This document shows positions 19,651 through 27,550 of a stretch of 64,000 bases of DNA, one piece after another. The notes below the pieces were generated by a model. That model worked only from the letters and a program-made list of their open reading frames with translations, made no database searches and was not told where the DNA came from. Every line of letters starts with the position of its first letter. Position 1 is the stretch's first letter. Made by a program: the position numbers and the translations under genes. Origin of the DNA: Streptomyces coeruleorubidus (GTDB lineage: Bacteria; Actinomycetota; Actinomycetes; Streptomycetales; Streptomycetaceae); the NCBI RefSeq assembly GCF_008705135.1, contig NZ_CP023694.1, forward strand, positions 7,167,001 to 7,231,000, read 5' to 3'.

Positions 19651-19692
19651 TGCCTCCCCCAGTGCCTTAAGGGCCTGGGAGGTACCCCCAGG
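19651..19692. repeat. Streptomyces-type interspersed repeat / terminator-like element
   Basis: Starts CCTCCCCCAGTGCCTTAAGG and ends GGTACCCCCAGG with CCCAG/CTGGG pairing around a central CCTTAAGG palindrome. It has the same frame of C-run, hairpin and (G)ACCCCCA as the copy in dxs. Flanking GTGCC and GGCAC can extend the stem. It may terminate the upstream permease transcript. Confidence 0.65.
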
Positions 19693-19710
19693 GCGGCACG
19701 GGTGGGCGCA

Positions 19711-19810
19711 GCGGCACCCCGTTCCGCCGGGCTGCGGACCCACCCCGCCCCGGCAGGAGTTGGCGGCACCCCGCAACGCCGGGTTGCGACACAGCCCGCC
19801 CCGGCAGAAA
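19711..19810. repeat. Two imperfect 48-bp direct repeats
   Basis: Unit 1 (19711-19758) and unit 2 (19763-19810) share GCGGCACCCCG, CGCCGGG(C/T)TGCG and CCCGCCCCGGCAG in the same order and spacing, offset by 52 bases. They fill the gap between the permease and the convergent PIN/NYN gene; no gene lies here. Confidence 0.75.
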
Positions 19811-19821
19811 CGCCCCCGCAC

Positions 19822-20193
19822 CTACGGCCGTACCGACCGCGGTCCCGTCACCTCCGCCCCCAGCTCCCCGACCCGCCTCCGTAGCTCCCGGTCCGCCGTG
19901 ACCACCAGAACCGGACGCGCACCCGCCCCCGCGACCACGTCCACGATGTGGTCGTCGCCACTGCCCGCCGCCGACTCCACCCGCACCCCGGCCACGGACT
20001 CCACCCCCCGCGCCGCCCCCTCCACCACGAGCACGACCTCCACCGGCCCGTCCACCCCCGGCACCCCGTCCGACGCCAACCGGTCCCGCAACCGCTCCGC
20101 CGCCCCCTTCCGGTCGCGCCACCAGCCGTCGGGCACCGAGCCGACGACGTTCGCGGCGTCGACGACGACAAGCAGGGGAGCGTTGCTGTTCAT
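19822..20193 (-). CDS. PIN/NYN-like nuclease-fold protein
   Basis: 123 aa from ATG 20193 (MNSNAPLLVVVDAANVVG). Acidic residues fall where NYN/PIN RNases keep their metal ligands: Asp in VVVDAANV, Asp-Asp in SGDDHIVDVV, and Asp in VVTADRELRRRV. The alternating strands and helices also fit. Similar Streptomyces proteins are often labelled NTP pyrophosphohydrolase, but I see no such motif. Divergent from the next gene with an 81-base gap. Likely an RNA-acting enzyme; activity unproven. Confidence 0.7.
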   Translation of the reverse strand: MNSNAPLLVVVDAANVVGSVPDGWWRDRKGAAERLRDRLASDGVPGVDGPVEVVLVVEGAARGVESVAGVRVESAAGSGDDHIVDVVAGAGARPVLVVTADRELRRRVGELGAEVTGPRSVRP

Positions 20194-20274
20194 GTGGCCA
20201 GGGTCGCACGGCGGATCTCGGCCAGGCAGGGGCGGGCGCGGCGGCCGGCCACCCCGCCCGCGTAAAGTGAACTG

Positions 20275-21291
20275 GTGAACGGCGACTGGCTCATCCGCGG
20301 CCGCGACGGCCGCCTCACCGTCTACCTGCCCTCCGGCGACGCCGTCCTGTGCCGTGCGGAACGCGGCCCCGCCGGCTCCTGGGACGCACCCCGAACCGTC
20401 GGCGGCACCCAGAAGCTGCACCCGGGTGTCGCGGTCGGCCAGGGTGCCGACGGCTACGCCCATCTGGCCGCCTGGCGGCCCACCGTGCCGGGCGAGTCGG
20501 GACTCGTGCACTCCACCCACTTCCGGCCCCGGCTCGCGCCCCTGGACTGGGTCCCGATCGGCCACCCTGACAAGAAGGGCGACCGGACGGGCCCGCCGGC
20601 CGTCGCCGTGGACTCCGCGGGGCGCGCCTACGTCTTCGTCCGCAACAACGGCGGCGGGGTGAGCCTGCGCAACCAGAAGGTGAAGGGCGGCTGGGGGCCC
20701 TGGCAGAACCTGGAGGGGCACGACGTCGAGGGGGAGTTGGCCGCGGTGACGGGGGAGTCGGGGATGGTCGAGGTGTACGCGTCCGGGCCGGGTGGGATCG
20801 TGCACTGGCGGCAGGAGGAACACGGAAAGACGCCGGTGCGGACCGAGGGCGTGGAGGTGGCGGTCCGGGCGGGGACGCTCCGGGCCCTTTCCACGTCCGC
20901 CGAGCACACCACCCTCTTCTTCACGGACGTCTCCGGCGACCTGTGCGCCTGGCGCCCGGGGGAGAAGCCGGTGACGCTCATCGCCTCCGCCGGGCCGGGG
21001 TCCGTGTCCGCCGTGCGCTGTGAGATCGAGGGGCACGACTGCACCGTGCTCGCCCAGCGGTCGTCGAGCGGCCGGGTCGCCTTCGCCGCCTATCCGACCG
21101 AACTGGAGTCCGCCGGGGCCTGGTGGACCGAGTCAGGCCCCCAACTGCCCGCCGACGCCACGGTGTCGCTGGCGCTCGACGAGCACGACGAGGTCGTCGC
21201 GGCCTCCCTCTCCCCGTCGACCGGGAAGCTGCTGCTCACCCGCCGCAAGGACGAGCCGGGGCTCGCGCTGGAGGCCTGGCGGGAGATCTGA
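20275..21291 (+). CDS. PLL-like beta-propeller protein of unknown function
   Basis: 338 aa, GTG start. Made of repeated blades ending in Trp-rich turns: GSWDAPRTVGG, LAPLDWVPIG, GGWGPWQNLEG, GGIVHWRQEEHG, GDLCAWRPGE, GAWWTESGPQLP. Such periodic W.. repeats are seen in PLL-like lectin propellers that bind fucose or other glycans. No signal peptide or membrane segment. It precedes the polysaccharide synthesis genes, so a glycan-binding role is reasonable but inferred. Confidence 0.7.
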   Translation: MNGDWLIRGRDGRLTVYLPSGDAVLCRAERGPAGSWDAPRTVGGTQKLHPGVAVGQGADGYAHLAAWRPTVPGESGLVHSTHFRPRLAPLDWVPIGHPDKKGDRTGPPAVAVDSAGRAYVFVRNNGGGVSLRNQKVKGGWGPWQNLEGHDVEGELAAVTGESGMVEVYASGPGGIVHWRQEEHGKTPVRTEGVEVAVRAGTLRALSTSAEHTTLFFTDVSGDLCAWRPGEKPVTLIASAGPGSVSAVRCEIEGHDCTVLAQRSSSGRVAFAAYPTELESAGAWWTESGPQLPADATVSLALDEHDEVVAASLSPSTGKLLLTRRKDEPGLALEAWREI

Positions 21292-21499
21292 CATCCCGTT
21301 CCTTATGAGGCTCTCGTCGCTTTCGAGACAGCACGTGTGCCGAGGGTTGTCCGGATGTGTGCGTGACGAGATGCACCTCGGGTGAACATGGTCAAGAGGT
21401 GTAGGTCTTGTTAACCTCCTCGCACTGTTCGATTTGCTGGGGGGCCGGTTGTCGCTGCGTCTGGCCGGGGCCGCGGCAACGGGGTTGGGGAATGATGTC

Positions 21500-22771
21500 G
21501 TGAGCAGATCCTCCACGGTGGATCTTGTCGTTGTCGGACTCGGTTACGTGGGGCTTCCGTTGGCCCGGTCCGCGGCCGCGGCGGGCCTGAAGGTGGTCGG
21601 TCTCGACCGCAGCCGACGGGTGGTCGACGATCTGAACGCCGGCCGCTCGCACGTGGACGACATCACCGACTCCGACGTGCGCGGCATGCTGGAGCGGGGC
21701 TTCGAGGCCACCGACCGGGCCGCGGTCATCGCCGACGCCGCCGCGGTCGTGGTGTGTGTGCCGACGCCGCTCACCGACCACGGCGCTCCGGACCTCGGCG
21801 CGGTGCACGCCGCCGTGGACGACATCGCCGCCCATCTCCGGGCCGGTACGCTCGTGGTGCTGGAGTCGACGACGTACCCGGGCACCACCGACGAGGTCGT
21901 CAGGCCCCGTCTGGAGGCCGGCGGGCTGCGCGTCGGCGTCGACTTCCACCTCGCCTTCTCCCCGGAGCGCATCGACCCGGGCAACGCCTCCTACGGGCTG
22001 GAGAACACGCCCAAGGTCGTCGGCGGCAGCACGGCCGACTGCACCAAGGCCGCCCGCGCCCTCTACGAGCGTTTCGTGCACCGGGTCGTCGAGGCCAAGG
22101 GCACCCGCGAGGCCGAGATGGCCAAGCTGCTGGAGAACACCTACCGGCACGTCAACATCGCGCTCGTCAACGAGATGTCGATGTTCTGCCGGGAGATCGG
22201 TGTCGACCTGTGGGACGCGATCCGGTGCGCGTCGACGAAGCCGTTCGGGTTCGCGCCCTTCCACCCCGGCCCCGGCGTCGGCGGGCACTGCATCCCGATC
22301 GACCCCAACTACCTGTCGTACAAGGTCCGTTCGCTGGGCATCCCGTTCCGGTTCGTGGAACTGGCACAGGAGATCAACCAGCGGATGCCCGTGCACGTCG
22401 TCAACCGGGCGGCCGACCTCCTCAACGACCAGGGCAAGGCCGTGCGCGGCTCGCGTGTCCTGCTGCTCGGCGTGACCTACAAGCCGGACATCTCCGACCA
22501 GCGCGAGAGCCCGGCGACACCCGTCGCGGAGAACCTGCTCGCGCGCGGTGCCGAACTCGTCTACTTCGATCCGCGGGTCGAGGACTGGCACGTCGGCGAT
22601 GTGCCCGTCGAGCGTGCCGTCGACTACCTCGCCGCCGCCGAGGCCGCCGACCTCACCATCCTGCTCCAGCCGCACCGCGAGATCGACCTGGACGTGCTCG
22701 CCGACCGGGCCCGGGCGCTCTTCGACACCCGGGGCAGGTCCGCCGATCACCCGCGGGTGGTCAAGCTGTGA
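21500..22771 (+). CDS. Nucleotide-sugar 6-dehydrogenase (UDP-HexNAc/UDP-Glc dehydrogenase family)
   Basis: 423 aa from GTG 21500 (GGGG at 21487-21490). Oxidises a UDP-hexose to a UDP-uronate with two NAD+. Rossmann motif VVGLGYVGLPLA (11-22); FSPERIDPGNA; catalytic Cys264 in GVGGHCIPIDPNYLSYK; C-terminal GVTYKPDISDQRESPA. The GHCIPIDP context resembles WbpA/TviB-like UDP-GlcNAc dehydrogenases more than the GGxCFPKD of UDP-glucose dehydrogenases, so the product may be UDP-GlcNAcA. Overlaps the next gene by GTGA, so the two are coupled. Confidence 0.88.
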   Translation: MSRSSTVDLVVVGLGYVGLPLARSAAAAGLKVVGLDRSRRVVDDLNAGRSHVDDITDSDVRGMLERGFEATDRAAVIADAAAVVVCVPTPLTDHGAPDLGAVHAAVDDIAAHLRAGTLVVLESTTYPGTTDEVVRPRLEAGGLRVGVDFHLAFSPERIDPGNASYGLENTPKVVGGSTADCTKAARALYERFVHRVVEAKGTREAEMAKLLENTYRHVNIALVNEMSMFCREIGVDLWDAIRCASTKPFGFAPFHPGPGVGGHCIPIDPNYLSYKVRSLGIPFRFVELAQEINQRMPVHVVNRAADLLNDQGKAVRGSRVLLLGVTYKPDISDQRESPATPVAENLLARGAELVYFDPRVEDWHVGDVPVERAVDYLAAAEAADLTILLQPHREIDLDVLADRARALFDTRGRSADHPRVVKL

Positions 22772-24534
22772 CAGCCGAGGACACGTACATACCCGGGGCC
22801 GTCGACTCCGGCGGCCGTCGCGCGCACCGCAAACGGCGGCACCTGAAGGTCTCGTACTTCGTCTTCCTGTGCCTGGCCGCGCTCATCGCGACCCGGCTCG
22901 ACGCCGGTTCGCTGCACCTGTACTCCATGGGTGCCATGGGCCTGCTGTCCCTGAAGATGTTCGGCGCCCTCTTCTACCGTCCGGCCAAGGCCGGGCGGGA
23001 GGAACTGGAGTACCTGGAGAACGCCTGGGTCACCGCGGTCATCCCGATCTACAACGAGGACCCGGTGATGTTCGAGCAGGGCATGCGCAGCCTCCTCGCG
23101 CAGAGCCGGCTGCCGAACGAGATCCACATCATCGACGACGCCAGCGCCGACGCCTCCGGCATCCGCGCGGCGAAGAAGATGCGCCGCGAGTTCGAGGCCA
23201 AGGGCGTCAAGTACACCGTCAGCGTGCAGCCCGAGAACAAGGGCAAGCGCGAGGCGCTCGCGCTGGGCTTCGAGGCCGCGCCGTACTCCGACATCTTCCT
23301 GTGCGTCGACTCGGACACCGTGCTGTCCCGGGACACCGTGCGCGAACTGCTGCTGCCGCTGGCCGACGAGAAGATCATGGCCTCCACCGGCATGGTGCTG
23401 GCGCTCAACCACGACAGCAACATCTTCACCCGCCTCCAGGACCTGCGCTACGGCAACTCCTTCCTCTTCGAGCGGGCCGCCTACTCCCGGCTGAAGTCGG
23501 TCCTGTGCTGCTGCGGCGCGCTCTCCGCGTACCGCGGCACGCTGGTGCGCAAGTACCTGCCGGACTTCCTCAACCAGCAGTTCCTGGGCAAGCCGGCCGT
23601 CTTCGGCGACGACCGCCGCATGACCAACTACTGCCTGATGGAAGGCCAGGTCGTCTTCCAGGAGACGGCCGTCGGCTACACCGCCGTCCCCGAGAAGCTG
23701 CCGCACTTCCTGCGCCAGCAGGTCCGCTGGAACAAGTCCTTCTTCCGCGAGTCCCTGTGGGCGTTCCGGCACCAGAAGAAGTACCGGCCCGCCTTCTGGC
23801 TGACCTGCATGGAACTCGCGCTGTGGCTGGTCTTCGGCTCGGCGATGTTCTACTCGATGGTCGTCCTGCCCATCATCAAGCCCGAGCAGTTCGTCCACCA
23901 CATCGGCGACTACCTGATCTTCATGGTGCTGATGGGCTATCTGCGCAATGTGCGCTACCTCGACTTCCCGCGCCGGGGCATGGGCTTCGTCAAGCGGTTC
24001 GGCATGTTCCTGCTCGCGCCGGTCTACGGCGTGATCCAGCTGACCCTGCTGACCCCGCTGCGGTTCTACGCCCTGTTCACGCTGCACAAGGGCAGTTGGG
24101 GCACCCGCCAGGGCGGTGTCGAGGTGTCCGTGGCCGGTGACCACGAGTCCGAGGTGACGGAGATCTTCGAGGAAGAGGACCCGTACTCCGACAAGAAGGT
24201 CACCGAGACGCTCCAGCTCATGCGTCTGGAGGGCGTGGCCCTGCGCACCCGGCCCCGCCCGTCCGGCGGCATCCCGGCCCAGCCGCAGCCCATCCCGGGC
24301 TACGACGAGGAGCAGCACGCGGCCGTCCCGCAGCAGCGCGTGAGCTGGGGGACGCCGGAACCGGCCGGTCAGCAGCAGTGGCAGGGCGGCTACGACGGTT
24401 ACCGCGACCCGTACCAGCAGCAGTACCCGGGCCAGGGCCACGACCCCCGGCAGGGCGGATACCCGCACCCGGACCCCTCCTGGCAGCAGGGCCCGGGCCA
24501 GGGACAGGGATACGGGCAGGGCGGCGGCTGGTAG
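22768..24534 (+). CDS. Hyaluronan-synthase-like processive GT2 glycosyltransferase
   Basis: 588 aa. One or two membrane segments (30-66) precede the GT-A domain with VIPIYNEDP (91-99), DSD (181-183), GDD (280-282) and QQVRW (317-321), the catalytic set of processive synthases. Then come membrane segments (about 342-440) and KGSWGTR (441-447), a signature of class I hyaluronan synthases. It should polymerise and extrude a beta-linked polysaccharide. The dehydrogenase upstream supplies a UDP-uronate. From about residue 495 the protein ends in a disordered tail rich in Gln, Gly, Tyr and Pro. A strong terminator follows. Confidence 0.85.
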   Translation: MTAEDTYIPGAVDSGGRRAHRKRRHLKVSYFVFLCLAALIATRLDAGSLHLYSMGAMGLLSLKMFGALFYRPAKAGREELEYLENAWVTAVIPIYNEDPVMFEQGMRSLLAQSRLPNEIHIIDDASADASGIRAAKKMRREFEAKGVKYTVSVQPENKGKREALALGFEAAPYSDIFLCVDSDTVLSRDTVRELLLPLADEKIMASTGMVLALNHDSNIFTRLQDLRYGNSFLFERAAYSRLKSVLCCCGALSAYRGTLVRKYLPDFLNQQFLGKPAVFGDDRRMTNYCLMEGQVVFQETAVGYTAVPEKLPHFLRQQVRWNKSFFRESLWAFRHQKKYRPAFWLTCMELALWLVFGSAMFYSMVVLPIIKPEQFVHHIGDYLIFMVLMGYLRNVRYLDFPRRGMGFVKRFGMFLLAPVYGVIQLTLLTPLRFYALFTLHKGSWGTRQGGVEVSVAGDHESEVTEIFEEEDPYSDKKVTETLQLMRLEGVALRTRPRPSGGIPAQPQPIPGYDEEQHAAVPQQRVSWGTPEPAGQQQWQGGYDGYRDPYQQQYPGQGHDPRQGGYPHPDPSWQQGPGQGQGYGQGGGW

Positions 24535-24553
24535 CCCGTGTCCGTGAGACGGG

Positions 24554-24593
24554 CATGAGAGAGGGGCGGCCGGGGGGCCGCCCCTCTCTCATG
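24554..24593. terminator. Bidirectional terminator between synthase and deacetylase
   Basis: CATGAGAGAGGGGCGGCC (24554-24571) pairs perfectly over 18 bp with GGCCGCCCCTCTCTCATG (24576-24593), loop GGGG. It lies between convergent genes and can serve both. Confidence 0.93.
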
Positions 24594-24614
24594 TGTCCGG
24601 TCTCATGTGTCCGG
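24587..24614. repeat. 14-bp tandem duplication at the terminator edge
   Basis: TCTCATGTGTCCGG occurs twice in a row (24587-24600, 24601-24614), partly overlapping the terminator arm. Confidence 0.85.
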
Positions 24615-24617
24615 GCC

Positions 24618-26105
24618 TCAGGTGTACGAGGCCATCGCCTCCTCGACCGTCAGCACCGGGATGTCCCGGTCGTCGATCGCCTTCATCAGCGTCTCCAGGC
24701 CCGCCTTGCCGATCTCGGTGCTCGTCGCCGGGGCGCCCTCGGTGACCTTGTGCAGACAGAGGATCAGCCAGTCACCGCTGTTCACACAGCGGTCGAGCCG
24801 GCCGCCCGCGCCCGTCAGCTTCGACAGCGCCGTACCGCCGATGCCGGTGCCGTCGTTGATGCCGGTCAGCGCCTTGAGACGGTACGGCATCGCCGGGGCG
24901 AACGACTCGATCGTCTCGGAGATGATCGACCGGGCCGTGGTGAAGTGCCGGCTCGCGATCTGGTCGACCGGGACACCGTCGGTCGTCTTCTGGAACGCGC
25001 CGTGCGGATAGGCGAAGTGCTCGCTGGTGAAGCCGTTGGACACCAGCCACTCGCGCAGCTTCCGGAAGTCGTCGTCGGCCTCCTCGGCGGTGAGCTTGGG
25101 ATAGCTCGCCGTGTGGACGGCGTTCGCGTACGAGTGGCCCGCCATCTCCCAGCCGGAGAAGTCCTGCATCGAGCGCATCTGGTTGAGCGTCAGGAAGTTG
25201 CCCGTGCCGATGGCGTCGGCGATGTTGTAGACCGTGCCGGGGAAGCCGTAGCGGTCCATGACCGGACGGGCCAGGTCGTGGATCGACTTGTGGGAGTCGT
25301 CGAAGGTGATCGAGACGACGCCCTTGGGGAAGACCGAGACGGTGTCCGGTATCAGCTCGACGGCCTGGAGCCGGTACGTCACCGGGCCGCCCGCGTTGTC
25401 GTACACGGCGAACGACATGTCGGTGAAGCCGGTCTTGGTGGACGGCTTGCCGTCGGCGCCGATGGAGTACGTGCCGGCCGCCGCGTTGACGTCGGCCCAC
25501 TGGAGGTGGACCGTCACCCACTCCCCGGACTGGACGTAGTTGGCCGCCGTCTTGGAGTGGGTGTGCAAGGTCCAGGCGAAGTGGTTCGCGAGGGAGCCGC
25601 TGCCCAGGTAGAAGACCATCTTGGCCAGGTTCGTCACGTCGTCGACGCGGAACACGAGCCGGATCATCTTGCCGCTCATGCTCACGGAGGGCATGCCGGT
25701 CTTGCGGACGTAGGACTGCTTGCCGCTGCCGTTCGTGGTCACCCGGACCGACTGGGTGCCGCGCACGAAGACGGACTTGTCGTTCGCCTCGGCCGACGCG
25801 GTGCCCGCGCCCCCCGGCGTCCAGCCGTGGGAGGCCTGGAACTGCTGGGACCAGCTCGCCCTGCGGTACTTGGGGCGGCGGCCGGAGGGGGCGTAGAGGG
25901 GAGGCGTGGAGAGGCCTCCGATGGCCCCCTCGGCGGCCGGCGCGGCGGCGGGCTGTGCCACCACCTGGCCCAGCCACGCGCCGCCGCCGGCCATCGCGAC
26001 GCCTCCTGTGCCACCCATCAGCAGCGCGGAACGCCGGCTCACCACCGGCTTGTTCTCCGCAGCCTCGGCAGCGTGCCTGTGGGCGTTGGACCGCCTTTTC
26101 CTCAC
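24618..26105 (-). CDS. Tat-exported polysaccharide deacetylase (CE4) with N-terminal beta-sandwich
   Basis: 495 aa from GTG 26105, which overlaps the stop of the upstream gene. Twin-arginine signal SRRSALLMGG (Arg24-25). Residues about 75-260 look like a carbohydrate-binding beta-sandwich (GTQSVRVTTNGSGKQSY; TYRLQAVELIPD). The NodB domain follows: ITFDDSHKSIHD near 265, GWEMAGHSYANAVH, HFAYPHGAF and LILCLHKV. CE4 enzymes remove N- or O-acetyl groups from glycans. Next to a synthase it may trim the exported polymer, as PgaB/IcaB-type enzymes do; this is inferred from context. Confidence 0.83.
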   Translation of the reverse strand: MRKRRSNAHRHAAEAAENKPVVSRRSALLMGGTGGVAMAGGGAWLGQVVAQPAAAPAAEGAIGGLSTPPLYAPSGRRPKYRRASWSQQFQASHGWTPGGAGTASAEANDKSVFVRGTQSVRVTTNGSGKQSYVRKTGMPSVSMSGKMIRLVFRVDDVTNLAKMVFYLGSGSLANHFAWTLHTHSKTAANYVQSGEWVTVHLQWADVNAAAGTYSIGADGKPSTKTGFTDMSFAVYDNAGGPVTYRLQAVELIPDTVSVFPKGVVSITFDDSHKSIHDLARPVMDRYGFPGTVYNIADAIGTGNFLTLNQMRSMQDFSGWEMAGHSYANAVHTASYPKLTAEEADDDFRKLREWLVSNGFTSEHFAYPHGAFQKTTDGVPVDQIASRHFTTARSIISETIESFAPAMPYRLKALTGINDGTGIGGTALSKLTGAGGRLDRCVNSGDWLILCLHKVTEGAPATSTEIGKAGLETLMKAIDDRDIPVLTVEEAMASYT

Positions 26106-27550
26106 CGGGACTCCCGAACCGTGTCGAAGTAGTTCATTCCCTGGCCGGTGAAGTCCTCGACCGCGGACCGGACTTCCTTCACCGACAGGGATTCGTTCGC
26201 GTTGTAGTAGAGCCAGTCGATCTTCATGTCCCACGCGCGGTCGCCCTTGAACGGCAGATCCACGAACCAGTGGTTGAAGTTCACGGACATTCCGGAGCGC
26301 GGGGCGTACTTGCCGTCGCTGGAGAAGAGCTTCTCGCCGTCCATGCGGTAGGTGACGAGGTCGCCCTCGACGGTGATCATCATGGTGTGCCAGCCGTCGA
26401 GGCTCTTGCCGGTCGTCCTGTAGACGCGGTCGTTGCTCTCGTGGTCGTACCAGGAGACGGTGTCGAGCTTGGGACCGGGGCGGCCCCAGCCGCCGTTCGG
26501 CATGTACTCGTTGTCGAGCTCGCTGTACTTCGTGCCGCTGCCGCCGATCGTGTAGAAGGTCTGGTTGACGTGGTCGCCGCCCTCGCCCTTCGCCGGATCG
26601 TCGCTGAAGTGGATACGGGCCGCGTAGGTGCCGTCGCGGAACTCGCCGCTCCGGGTGCCCAGACTCGCCTGCTTCGTGCCCGACCTGGTGCCGTCCGTGC
26701 TCGCCCGCAGGTTGAGCACCGGGCCGTCGCGCAGGGCGCCCTGGGCGGTGGGGAAACTGACGTTCTCCGCCGCCCAGGTGTTCTCGATGCCGGGGCCGCC
26801 CTTGCTGGTGCGGACCAGCCAGCCGTGCTTGAACAGAGCCGGGTCCTTGGGGCCCTGGTAGCTGAAGTCGTCGAACAGCACCCCGGCCGGGGGCGCCGGC
26901 ACCGCGTCGGGTGCGGCCTTCGCCGAGGCCTTCTTCTCGTCGCTCGCCTTGGTGCCGTCCGGCTCCTCACCCCAGGCGAGGACGCCCCGCTTGTACGCGG
27001 TGACCTTCTCCGCCTCCTTGTAGGACGTCATCTCCGCGTCGAAGGAGCGGTCGTCGGACTGCTTCAGCCGCTTGTGGTCGGTGCGGAAGAGCTGGAGGTC
27101 GATGCCCTTGCTGTTGGCGCCCGGCTTCAGGCTGCCCGCGCCGGCCGTGAACCTGACCTCCAGGTAGTGGTCGGCGGTGTCGGTCGCCTTGTCCATGGCG
27201 ACGACCCGGCCGGCGACGTGCGAGCAGCCGAAGGCGGCGTTGACGCAGTTGAAGGCGTACGACGAGGGGCCCGGGGCGCCGTCGGCCGTGAAGTAGTACC
27301 GGAGCGTCACATCGCTCAACGGCAGTGCCTTCTCGGTGTCGTTGAAGACCTCGAACGACGGCTTGGCCGCCGCGGCCGTGGCCGGAGTGCCGGTCCGGTA
27401 GCGGACCTTGAGCTCGGGCGGGTCCGGGTTCGCCGCCTTCCACACGGGATACAGCGCCGTGCCGCCGGCGGCGACCACCGCCACCAGGAGCAGGAGCCTG
27501 ACCTTGGGCCAAACCCGGCGTCGGGGTGGTCGGCGGCGGGAGGACGCCAC
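26102..27550 (-). CDS. Membrane-anchored CBM3 / GH16-like polysaccharide-binding protein
   Basis: 482 aa from GTG 27550 (AAGGAG 6 bases upstream; GTG 27571 is an alternative with GGAG). A basic tail and one membrane segment (about 17-37, KVRLLLLVAVVAAGGTALYP) anchor it outside. A family-3 carbohydrate-binding module follows (PSFEVFNDTEKALPLSDVTL ... VTAYKRGVLAWGEEP), then a concanavalin-like domain (about 230-450) with ELDNE near 345, the ExDxE pattern of GH16 active sites. CBM3 binds crystalline cellulose or similar beta-glucans. First gene of an operon with the deacetylase. Hydrolytic activity is likely but not certain. Confidence 0.78.
   Translation of the reverse strand: MASSRRRPPRRRVWPKVRLLLLVAVVAAGGTALYPVWKAANPDPPELKVRYRTGTPATAAAAKPSFEVFNDTEKALPLSDVTLRYYFTADGAPGPSSYAFNCVNAAFGCSHVAGRVVAMDKATDTADHYLEVRFTAGAGSLKPGANSKGIDLQLFRTDHKRLKQSDDRSFDAEMTSYKEAEKVTAYKRGVLAWGEEPDGTKASDEKKASAKAAPDAVPAPPAGVLFDDFSYQGPKDPALFKHGWLVRTSKGGPGIENTWAAENVSFPTAQGALRDGPVLNLRASTDGTRSGTKQASLGTRSGEFRDGTYAARIHFSDDPAKGEGGDHVNQTFYTIGGSGTKYSELDNEYMPNGGWGRPGPKLDTVSWYDHESNDRVYRTTGKSLDGWHTMMITVEGDLVTYRMDGEKLFSSDGKYAPRSGMSVNFNHWFVDLPFKGDRAWDMKIDWLYYNANESLSVKEVRSAVEDFTGQGMNYFDTVRESR

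Follow-up and report, generated by a model that had tools for sequence, protein, structure and literature searches.

A conserved four-gene module in Streptomyces that may produce an acidic, N-acetylglucosamine-based surface polysaccharide

The DNA analyzed here is a stretch of 64,000 nucleotides (hereafter the window) from Streptomyces coeruleorubidus (assembly GCF_008705135.1, contig NZ_CP023694.1, positions 7,167,001 to 7,231,000), whose 9.34-Mb genome is a single contig with a completeness rating of 100%. Between positions 21500 and 27550, the window carries genes for a nucleotide-sugar dehydrogenase (DH), a processive family 2 glycosyltransferase (GT2) resembling hyaluronan synthase (HAS), a polysaccharide deacetylase, and a protein that combines a family 3 carbohydrate-binding module (CBM3) with a domain similar to glycoside hydrolase family 16 (GH16). 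These four genes travel together as a unit, which is found at more than one chromosomal site. We regard the chances as about evenly balanced that this module makes an acidic surface polysaccharide based on N-acetylglucosamine (GlcNAc), that is, a GlcNAc polymer with N-acetylglucosaminuronate (GlcNAcA) that would lose part of its N-acetyl groups, undergo processing, and be retained at the surface. The gene content, the gene overlaps, the conservation as a multi-site unit, the enzyme families, and the conserved catalytic-type residues are directly observed.

The module consists of two convergent gene pairs, flanked by a dxs/amino-acid-permease region and a fadJ/thiolase pair, with the following features (UDP, uridine diphosphate; CE4, carbohydrate esterase family 4):

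21500-22771, + strand: UDP-N-acetylhexosamine-type nucleotide-sugar 6-dehydrogenase (DH), GTG start; assigned by TIGR03026, the Cap5O match, signatures, and tree
22768-24534, + strand: processive membrane GT2, hyaluronan-synthase-like; assigned by PDB matches, trees, motifs, and an AlphaFold model
24555-24592, no strand assigned: inverted repeat with 17-base arms and a 4-base loop, read by eye; possible two-way terminator between the convergent genes
24618-26105, − strand: CE4-like polysaccharide deacetylase with a twin-arginine signal; assigned by PF01522 and aligned catalytic-type residues
26102-27550, − strand: membrane-anchored CBM3-GH16-like protein; assigned by PF00942, predicted fold, and ExDxE motif; the open reading frame extends to 27649

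In each pair, the genes overlap through the tetranucleotide GTGA, which joins the DH stop to the GT2 start on the + strand and the stop of the CBM3-GH16-like gene (27550-26102) to the start of the deacetylase gene (26105-24618) on the − strand. The 83-base gap between the pairs contains the inverted repeat, with no T-run after it, and a promoter and terminator scan of the convergent junction reported nothing, the repeat included. Homologue starts favor a start of the CBM3-GH16-like protein at ~27550 over the frame limit of 27649, and the DH translations used in comparisons begin at 21497. GC content at third codon positions (GC3) is 0.93-0.96 across the four genes. An earlier interpretation made from the letters of the window alone (the sequence-only reading) had described these genes, the motifs DSD, GDD, QxxRW, KGSWGTR, and GHCIPIDP, the GTGA coupling of GT2 to the dehydrogenase, and the convergent pair of an exported deacetylase and a CBM3/GH16-like anchor protein, all of which are present.

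A scan of genome contigs for GT2 yielded 47 loci (46 from Streptomyces and one from Catenulispora), to which one locus each from G139 and G090 was added, giving 49 loci in total; L072 and L073, which come from one species and seemingly represent the same stretch, were counted as two. DH was found at 48 of these loci, the CBM3-GH16-like protein at 45, and the deacetylase at 42, so that the four-gene unit proposed in the sequence-only reading, with its functions named, proved to be conserved. Six of the 12 partner misses lie at contig ends, namely three of four for the CBM3-GH16-like protein (L062, L067, and L069) and three of seven for the deacetylase (L067, L069, and L074), whereas the sole DH miss (L082) lies away from a contig end. 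At 40 of the 49 loci, the first residue of GT2 begins with the base that immediately precedes the DH stop codon. Such linkage of the partners indicates that the module is not a chance arrangement.

The genes that flank the module in the window were seen at 36 loci and not seen at the other 13, one of which, the short contig L069, nevertheless includes the upstream gene discussed at the end of this text. At these 13 loci, DH and GT2 were present in all cases, the CBM3-GH16-like protein in 11, and the deacetylase in 8. The four modules examined in more detail (L075, L077, L091, and L128) sit between genes that we take, from their sequences, to be truA and ribosomal-protein genes. A further stretch at the truA-rplM site (L124, 6913-9777) contains a CBM3-GH16 protein and, beside it, a GT2 of another type; no DH was found there, which gives the impression of a synthase exchange at a single site. 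The distribution of the module is sporadic. A GT2 of more than 70% identity occurs in 3 of 150 genomes of the family, and 12 of 295 genomes of the genus encode a CBM3-GH16 protein that is 57% or more identical along most of its length, the S. coeruleorubidus genome being included in both counts. A limited literature search with partial coverage found no paper describing this Streptomyces locus or polymer; the earlier suggestion that the polymer is not known in Streptomyces needs qualification, since the locus is present in dozens of sequenced Streptomyces.

GT2 is HAS-like in its sequence, motifs, and predicted fold. It has hydrophobic membrane segments and the motifs characteristic of class I HAS architecture, i.e., DSD at residues 181-183 (DXD), GDD at 280-282, QQVRW at 317-321 (QxxRW), and KGSWGTR at 441-447 (WGTR-type gating loop). 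Its best PDB sequence matches are HAS (7sp7, E 1.9e-32; 8smm, E 3.5e-27), and it is 28-29% identical to CvHAS and XlHAS1 across the aligned part of the glycosyltransferase (GT) domain. Pfam returned general GT2 families and a weak Chitin_synth_2 match, and the best NCBIfam family was NodC (TIGR04242, 171.9 bits), whose cut-off of 550 was not reached. Six short motifs (FLG, GDD, TN, KS, RE, and WGT) are the same in GT2, CvHAS, and XlHAS1 but differ in the single NodC compared; the CvHAS and XlHAS1 residues considered here were taken from the available text of PMC12987647 and PMC11750622. In CvHAS, Lys177 and Arg341 are described in the available text of PMC12987647 as sitting near the glucuronate (GlcA) carboxylate. 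Their counterparts in GT2 are K160 and R320, and as the compared NodC also carries both, these carboxylate-contact residues failed to discriminate HAS from NodC.

An AlphaFold2 model of GT2 (mean predicted local distance difference test score, pLDDT, of 75, with a low-confidence C-terminal tail at 490-588) agrees with the sequence comparison. The top 13 chains in a Foldseek search are all HAS; Z scores are 28.9-32.2 for HAS chains, 24.5 for BcsA, and 24.1 for chitin synthase, and an archaeal mannosyltransferase (Z 31.2) ties with the HAS chains. In a maximum-likelihood tree of 39 sequences, for which the program flags long branches, GT2 falls in a clade of 33 rows (support 99/99) together with CvHAS, XlHAS1, the synthase of an Enterococcus plasmid (L106), NodC, and other actinobacterial GT2s; an earlier smaller tree had given the clade of HAS, NodC, and the window enzyme a support of 100/100. 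Outside the clade are CslA of the same genome, E. coli BcsA, PgaC, and three NodB-GT2 fusions of the same genome. Since NodC lies within the clade, the choice between HAS and NodC is not settled by the tree. The HAS-like synthase that the sequence-only reading had proposed is therefore supported by sequence, motifs, predicted fold, and tree, and the structural comparison with HAS that it had suggested puts HAS first. A cellulose-synthase-like origin of GT2, which it had named as the result that would speak against it, was rejected: a tree uniting the window group, CslA, and BcsA in one clade received a P value of 0.004 in the approximately unbiased test (p-AU), CslA of the same genome is 16.6% identical to GT2 and is placed with BcsA, and BcsA is 14% identical. 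This CslA was recognized by its likeness to BcsA and the adjacent galactose-oxidase-like gene, in line with the CslA-GlxA pairing.

DH is the most constant partner of the synthase. It matches TIGR03026 with 420 bits, and its best PDB match is Cap5O (3ojl, E 9e-63), with an archaeal WecC-like enzyme also among the best. Its signatures GVGGHCIPIDP and KLLENTYRHVNIAL are close to those of WecC and Cap5O, whereas UDP-glucose (UDP-Glc)-type sequences carry GG[SGY]C[LF]PKD and CalS8, a UDP-Glc dehydrogenase, carries GGSCLTKD. In a tree of 25 sequences, DH groups with WecC, Cap5O, and 4r16, with CalS8 outside at 98/93 and the UDP-Glc-type enzymes outside both the DH group and CalS8 at 100/100. The GVGGHC-type Cys motif, the ENTYRxVNIA helix, and this clade apart from UDP-Glc dehydrogenases assign DH to the UDP-N-acetylhexosamine (UDP-HexNAc) 6-dehydrogenases rather than to the UDP-Glc group, as the sequence-only reading had surmised from GHCIPIDP. 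Because the module contains no epimerase, UDP-GlcNAc would be its simplest substrate. Moreover, UDP-GlcNAc 2-epimerase (PF02350) had no match in the complete S. coeruleorubidus genome, G139, or G336; UDP-N-acetylmannosamine (UDP-ManNAc) as donor precursor is thus disfavored and is unlikely in S. coeruleorubidus. On these sequence-based grounds, UDP-GlcNAc is the likeliest substrate of DH, with UDP-N-acetylgalactosamine also compatible. The same genome encodes three further dehydrogenases that are UDP-Glc-type by motif and another PF03721 match (L007) that was left unclassified. In addition, a second HexNAc-type dehydrogenase (48% identical) lies with a distant GT2 (28%) outside the window near the chromosome end (G000:C1, ~9228400-9231300; L100, 8404-11213, − strand).

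The deacetylase matches PF01522 with 41.1 bits (cut-off 23.1), which places it in CE4, and reaches 42 bits for HfsH and 38 bits for IcaB in NCBIfam, each under its cut-off. It contains the twin-arginine sequence SRRSALL. The TFDD residues D269 and D270, the metal-type histidines H324 and H331, and H452 of a C-terminal LxLH-type motif are invariant in all 12 aligned homologues.

The CBM3-GH16-like protein has a CBM3 match (PF00942, 65 bits) and one predicted transmembrane stretch (hydrophobic residues 48-70). In a model based on 20 sequences (mean pLDDT 77), a helix at 47-73 fits a membrane anchor, residues 77-231 form a predicted CBM3 domain (Z 24.7 to 6d5b over 151 residues), and residues 254-486 adopt a predicted GH16 fold (Z 18.2 to the GH16 structure 5nbo over 208 residues). 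The Pfam search of this protein gave no GH16 match, and the putative GH16 assignment comes from the modeled fold and the ExDxE motif (E377, D379, and E381), which is invariant in 20 of 20 aligned sequences. CBM3 domains bind crystalline cellulose or chitin. A fragment in another genome (G160:C10:123765-124160), 71% identical to residues 19-152 and interrupted by two internal stop codons, looks like a decayed copy of the gene.

The neighbors of its relatives point to a family that may process GlcNAc-type chains. GH16-like relatives at E 1e-40 or better occur in 134 of 295 genomes of the genus. Full-length relatives of ~40% identity adjoin a match to hexosaminidase family GH20, on the same strand and in apparent operons, in 22 of 25 genomes, which were the first 25 such matches in list order and not a random sample; the distance is 1.5 kb in G349 and within 0.3 kb in the other 21, and among the misses, G161 and G352 have no such match in the vicinity, and in G189 the locus lies at the edge of a contig. 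In 17 of 18 genomes, single-domain relatives of 49-54% identity (those of 38-47% were left out) and a NodB-GT2 fusion of MatB architecture are divergently oriented and no more than ~1.1 kb apart; in the single miss (G189) the two genes are on separate contigs. Both kinds of neighbor suggest GlcNAc-type substrates. Full-length relatives also stand beside HAS-like GT2s in L092-L095 and beside a third GT2 type in L124-L127. Judging from L121, L123, L131, and the 17 genomes mentioned, the single-domain GH16-like protein may be an unrecognized partner of MatB-architecture fusions.

The substrates, polymer composition, linkage, export, processing order, surface retention, any part in attachment, and biological role are inferences from the observations above. 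DH would oxidize UDP-GlcNAc to UDP-GlcNAcA in the cytoplasm, and the HAS-like GT2 would polymerize UDP-GlcNAc and UDP-GlcNAcA and export the chain via its own membrane channel. Outside, the CE4 enzyme, exported by the twin-arginine translocation (Tat) pathway, may strip some N-acetyl groups, so that free amines would lie beside carboxylates. The membrane-anchored CBM3-GH16-like protein may bind the chain, or a cellulose- or chitin-like partner, and could cut or transfer the chain, thereby setting its length or fixing it to the wall. A bolder version, which we entertain only tentatively and consider doubtful, is that the product would be a new glycosaminoglycan-like polymer, i.e., a hyaluronan analogue in which GlcNAcA replaces GlcA and partial deacetylation yields a zwitterionic chain, that the donor choice of a HAS relative changed together with its partner DH, and that the CBM3-GH16-like proteins form a tailoring family acting on GlcNAc polymers across Streptomyces.

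Several observations weigh against the production of such an acidic GlcNAc-based polymer. DH passes no NCBIfam equivalog cut-off, scoring far too low for both WecC (249.6 bits against 459) and TviB (190.7 against 592), its tree left out characterized UDP-GlcNAc dehydrogenases, and UDP-GlcNAc 2-epimerase was found in six of nine module-bearing genomes examined, so UDP-ManNAc is disfavored only for the others. The fuller GT2 tree does not fix how the window clade, HAS, NodC, and the Enterococcus enzyme branch relative to one another. Among the closest relatives outside that clade (L092-L095, with GT2s 44-46% identical in the GT domain), a UDP-Glc-type dehydrogenase instead of this DH type adjoins GT2 in L092 and L094, and for L093 and L095 a similarity search of the fetched stretch found no dehydrogenase, so that there has been a change of donor or, alternatively, the product is not determined by DH. 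The deacetylase is missing at L066, L078, L085, and L088, implying that deacetylation is not always needed, and the spacing of its H324 and H331 is wider than in the usual CE4 motif. Finally, the GH16-like model is poor next to the catalytic motif (pLDDT below 50 at 367-370 and 385-387), and glucans and galactans make up most of the known substrates of GH16.

The pairing of related synthases bears on the choice of uronate. HexNAc-type dehydrogenases accompany GT2 in the window clade, in Catenulispora, and on a Paenibacillus plasmid, and UDP-Glc-type enzymes accompany related GT2s in L092, L094, L106 (Enterococcus plasmid), and L107 (S. canus plasmid). This coupling of a wide synthase group to either donor type supports the use of a uronate in general and leaves its exact identity open. 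It also favors, to some extent, an explanation that we regard as unlikely, namely that the product is true hyaluronan or another copolymer of GlcA and GlcNAc, with GT2 acting as an ordinary class I HAS and UDP-GlcA coming from oxidation of UDP-Glc by DH or from another dehydrogenase of the genome. The HAS-like sequence and fold of GT2 and the three UDP-Glc-type dehydrogenases encoded elsewhere in the genome would fit this explanation as well, but the dehydrogenase that overlaps GT2 has HexNAc-type signatures and groups with WecC and Cap5O, and a CE4 deacetylase and a GH16-like protein are, to our knowledge, foreign to the known hyaluronan operons.

Quite unlikely, in our view, is a neutral, chitin- or chitosan-like GlcNAc homopolymer made in the manner of NodC or chitin synthase, the DH product being used in another pathway or only for decoration. 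NodC is the best NCBIfam family for GT2 (172 bits) and shares its clade, the ability of CBM3 to bind crystalline cellulose or chitin would suit such a product, and the association of GH16-like proteins with GH20 and MatB-like enzymes fits GlcNAc polymers generally. Nevertheless, DH is found at 48 of the 49 loci, its stop meets the GT2 start in the same manner at 40, and the compared NodC lacks the FLG/GDD/TN/KS/RE/WGT residues common to the window enzyme, CvHAS, and XlHAS1. A third candidate is a homopolymer of N-acetylhexosaminuronate built from UDP-GlcNAcA alone, a carboxylated chitin similar in composition to the Vi antigen, which is such a homopolymer made from the product of a UDP-GlcNAc dehydrogenase. 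It would agree with a module core of one DH and one GT2 but is very unlikely, as class I HAS enzymes add two different sugars according to the available text of PMC10939387, GT2 keeps the HAS motifs examined, and the GH16-like family has partners elsewhere that speak for GlcNAc polymers.

Compared with known systems, an acidic GlcNAc-based product has its closest functional precedent in the chitin-synthase-like clusters of fungi and chloroviruses. As described in the available text of PMC4059230 and PMC5122149, chitin-synthase-like genes of fungi and algal viruses are clustered with a UDP-GlcNAc 6-dehydrogenase and partly also with a polysaccharide deacetylase; the window module likewise has a GT2 of the chitin synthase/HAS group, a UDP-GlcNAc-type dehydrogenase, and a polysaccharide deacetylase side by side, and the acidic product is putative in both. 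Those synthases are classed as chitin synthases or chitin-synthase-like by phylogeny, HAS and NodC being outgroups in PMC5122149, whereas the window GT2, which was compared with them by description only, is bacterial and HAS-like and has a CBM3-GH16 partner.

The class I HAS enzymes CvHAS and XlHAS1 resemble GT2 in having a single GT2 domain with membrane helices and the HAS motifs and are its top structural matches; the differences are a dehydrogenase of the UDP-HexNAc group, the deacetylase and CBM3-GH16 partners, and an identity of only 28-29%. In the streptococcal hasA-hasB operon, a nucleotide-sugar dehydrogenase gene is adjacent to the synthase gene, as in the window. In the nodABC system, too, a GT2 from this larger clade is partnered by a CE4 deacetylase; however, the compared NodC lacks several residues common to GT2 and HAS, and no dehydrogenase was among the six features looked at in the nod stretch. 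The Streptomyces MatAB system also produces a surface GlcNAc polymer (poly-beta-1,6-GlcNAc) by means of a GT2 and a deacetylase. MatB is a NodB-GT2 fusion of the PgaC type, no dehydrogenase is mentioned in the available text of PMC4391728 (MatAB is also covered in PMC5972031), and the three NodB-GT2 fusions of the S. coeruleorubidus genome form a clade separate from GT2. Loci of MatB architecture carry the single-domain relative of the GH16-like protein, the L121-type fusion being a putative matB counterpart only.

Two plasmid loci deserve separate mention. On an Enterococcus faecium plasmid typed as conjugative (L106, 773-3190), a UDP-Glc-type dehydrogenase precedes a GT2 36% identical to that of the window, which looks like a HAS-type pair. 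On a Paenibacillus cellulositrophicus plasmid (L110, 2547-10177), a deacetylase, a HexNAc-type dehydrogenase missing from the listed annotation, a GT2, another deacetylase, and a family 18 glycoside hydrolase (GH18) stand in a row as an independent parallel to the module. In a scan of a viral collection with the DH alignment, a GT2 relative was present in the flanks of 6 of the best 80 of 97 relatives.

In the Streptomyces papers found by the literature search, the recurrent surface-glycan genes are CslA and MatAB, and the module would add a further, acidic one, with possible relevance to pellet formation, attachment, and fermentation. The pairing of related GT2s with either UDP-Glc-type or UDP-HexNAc-type dehydrogenases also amounts to a natural experiment on the choice of uronate donor by HAS-type enzymes. 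As tools, both a compact module that can be cloned to make a hyaluronan-like zwitterionic polymer and a family of GH16-like proteins linked to GlcNAc polymers would be of use.

Upstream of the module, the frame at 19670-20209 gave no match in a Pfam search and is probably not a coding one. It is followed by one more gene:

20275-21291, + strand: upstream gene, outside the module; it has no family match and does not travel with the module

The sequence-only reading had considered this a beta-propeller gene belonging with the others. That fold was not confirmed, as searches of Pfam and NCBIfam were negative and PDB sequence matches did not get below E 0.067. The gene was found in none of the 12 loci that do not show the module at the window site, and its membership in the module was rejected. 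Its presence at 62-74% identity in 11 of 18 congeners chosen for lacking this GT2 indicates that it is a bystander.

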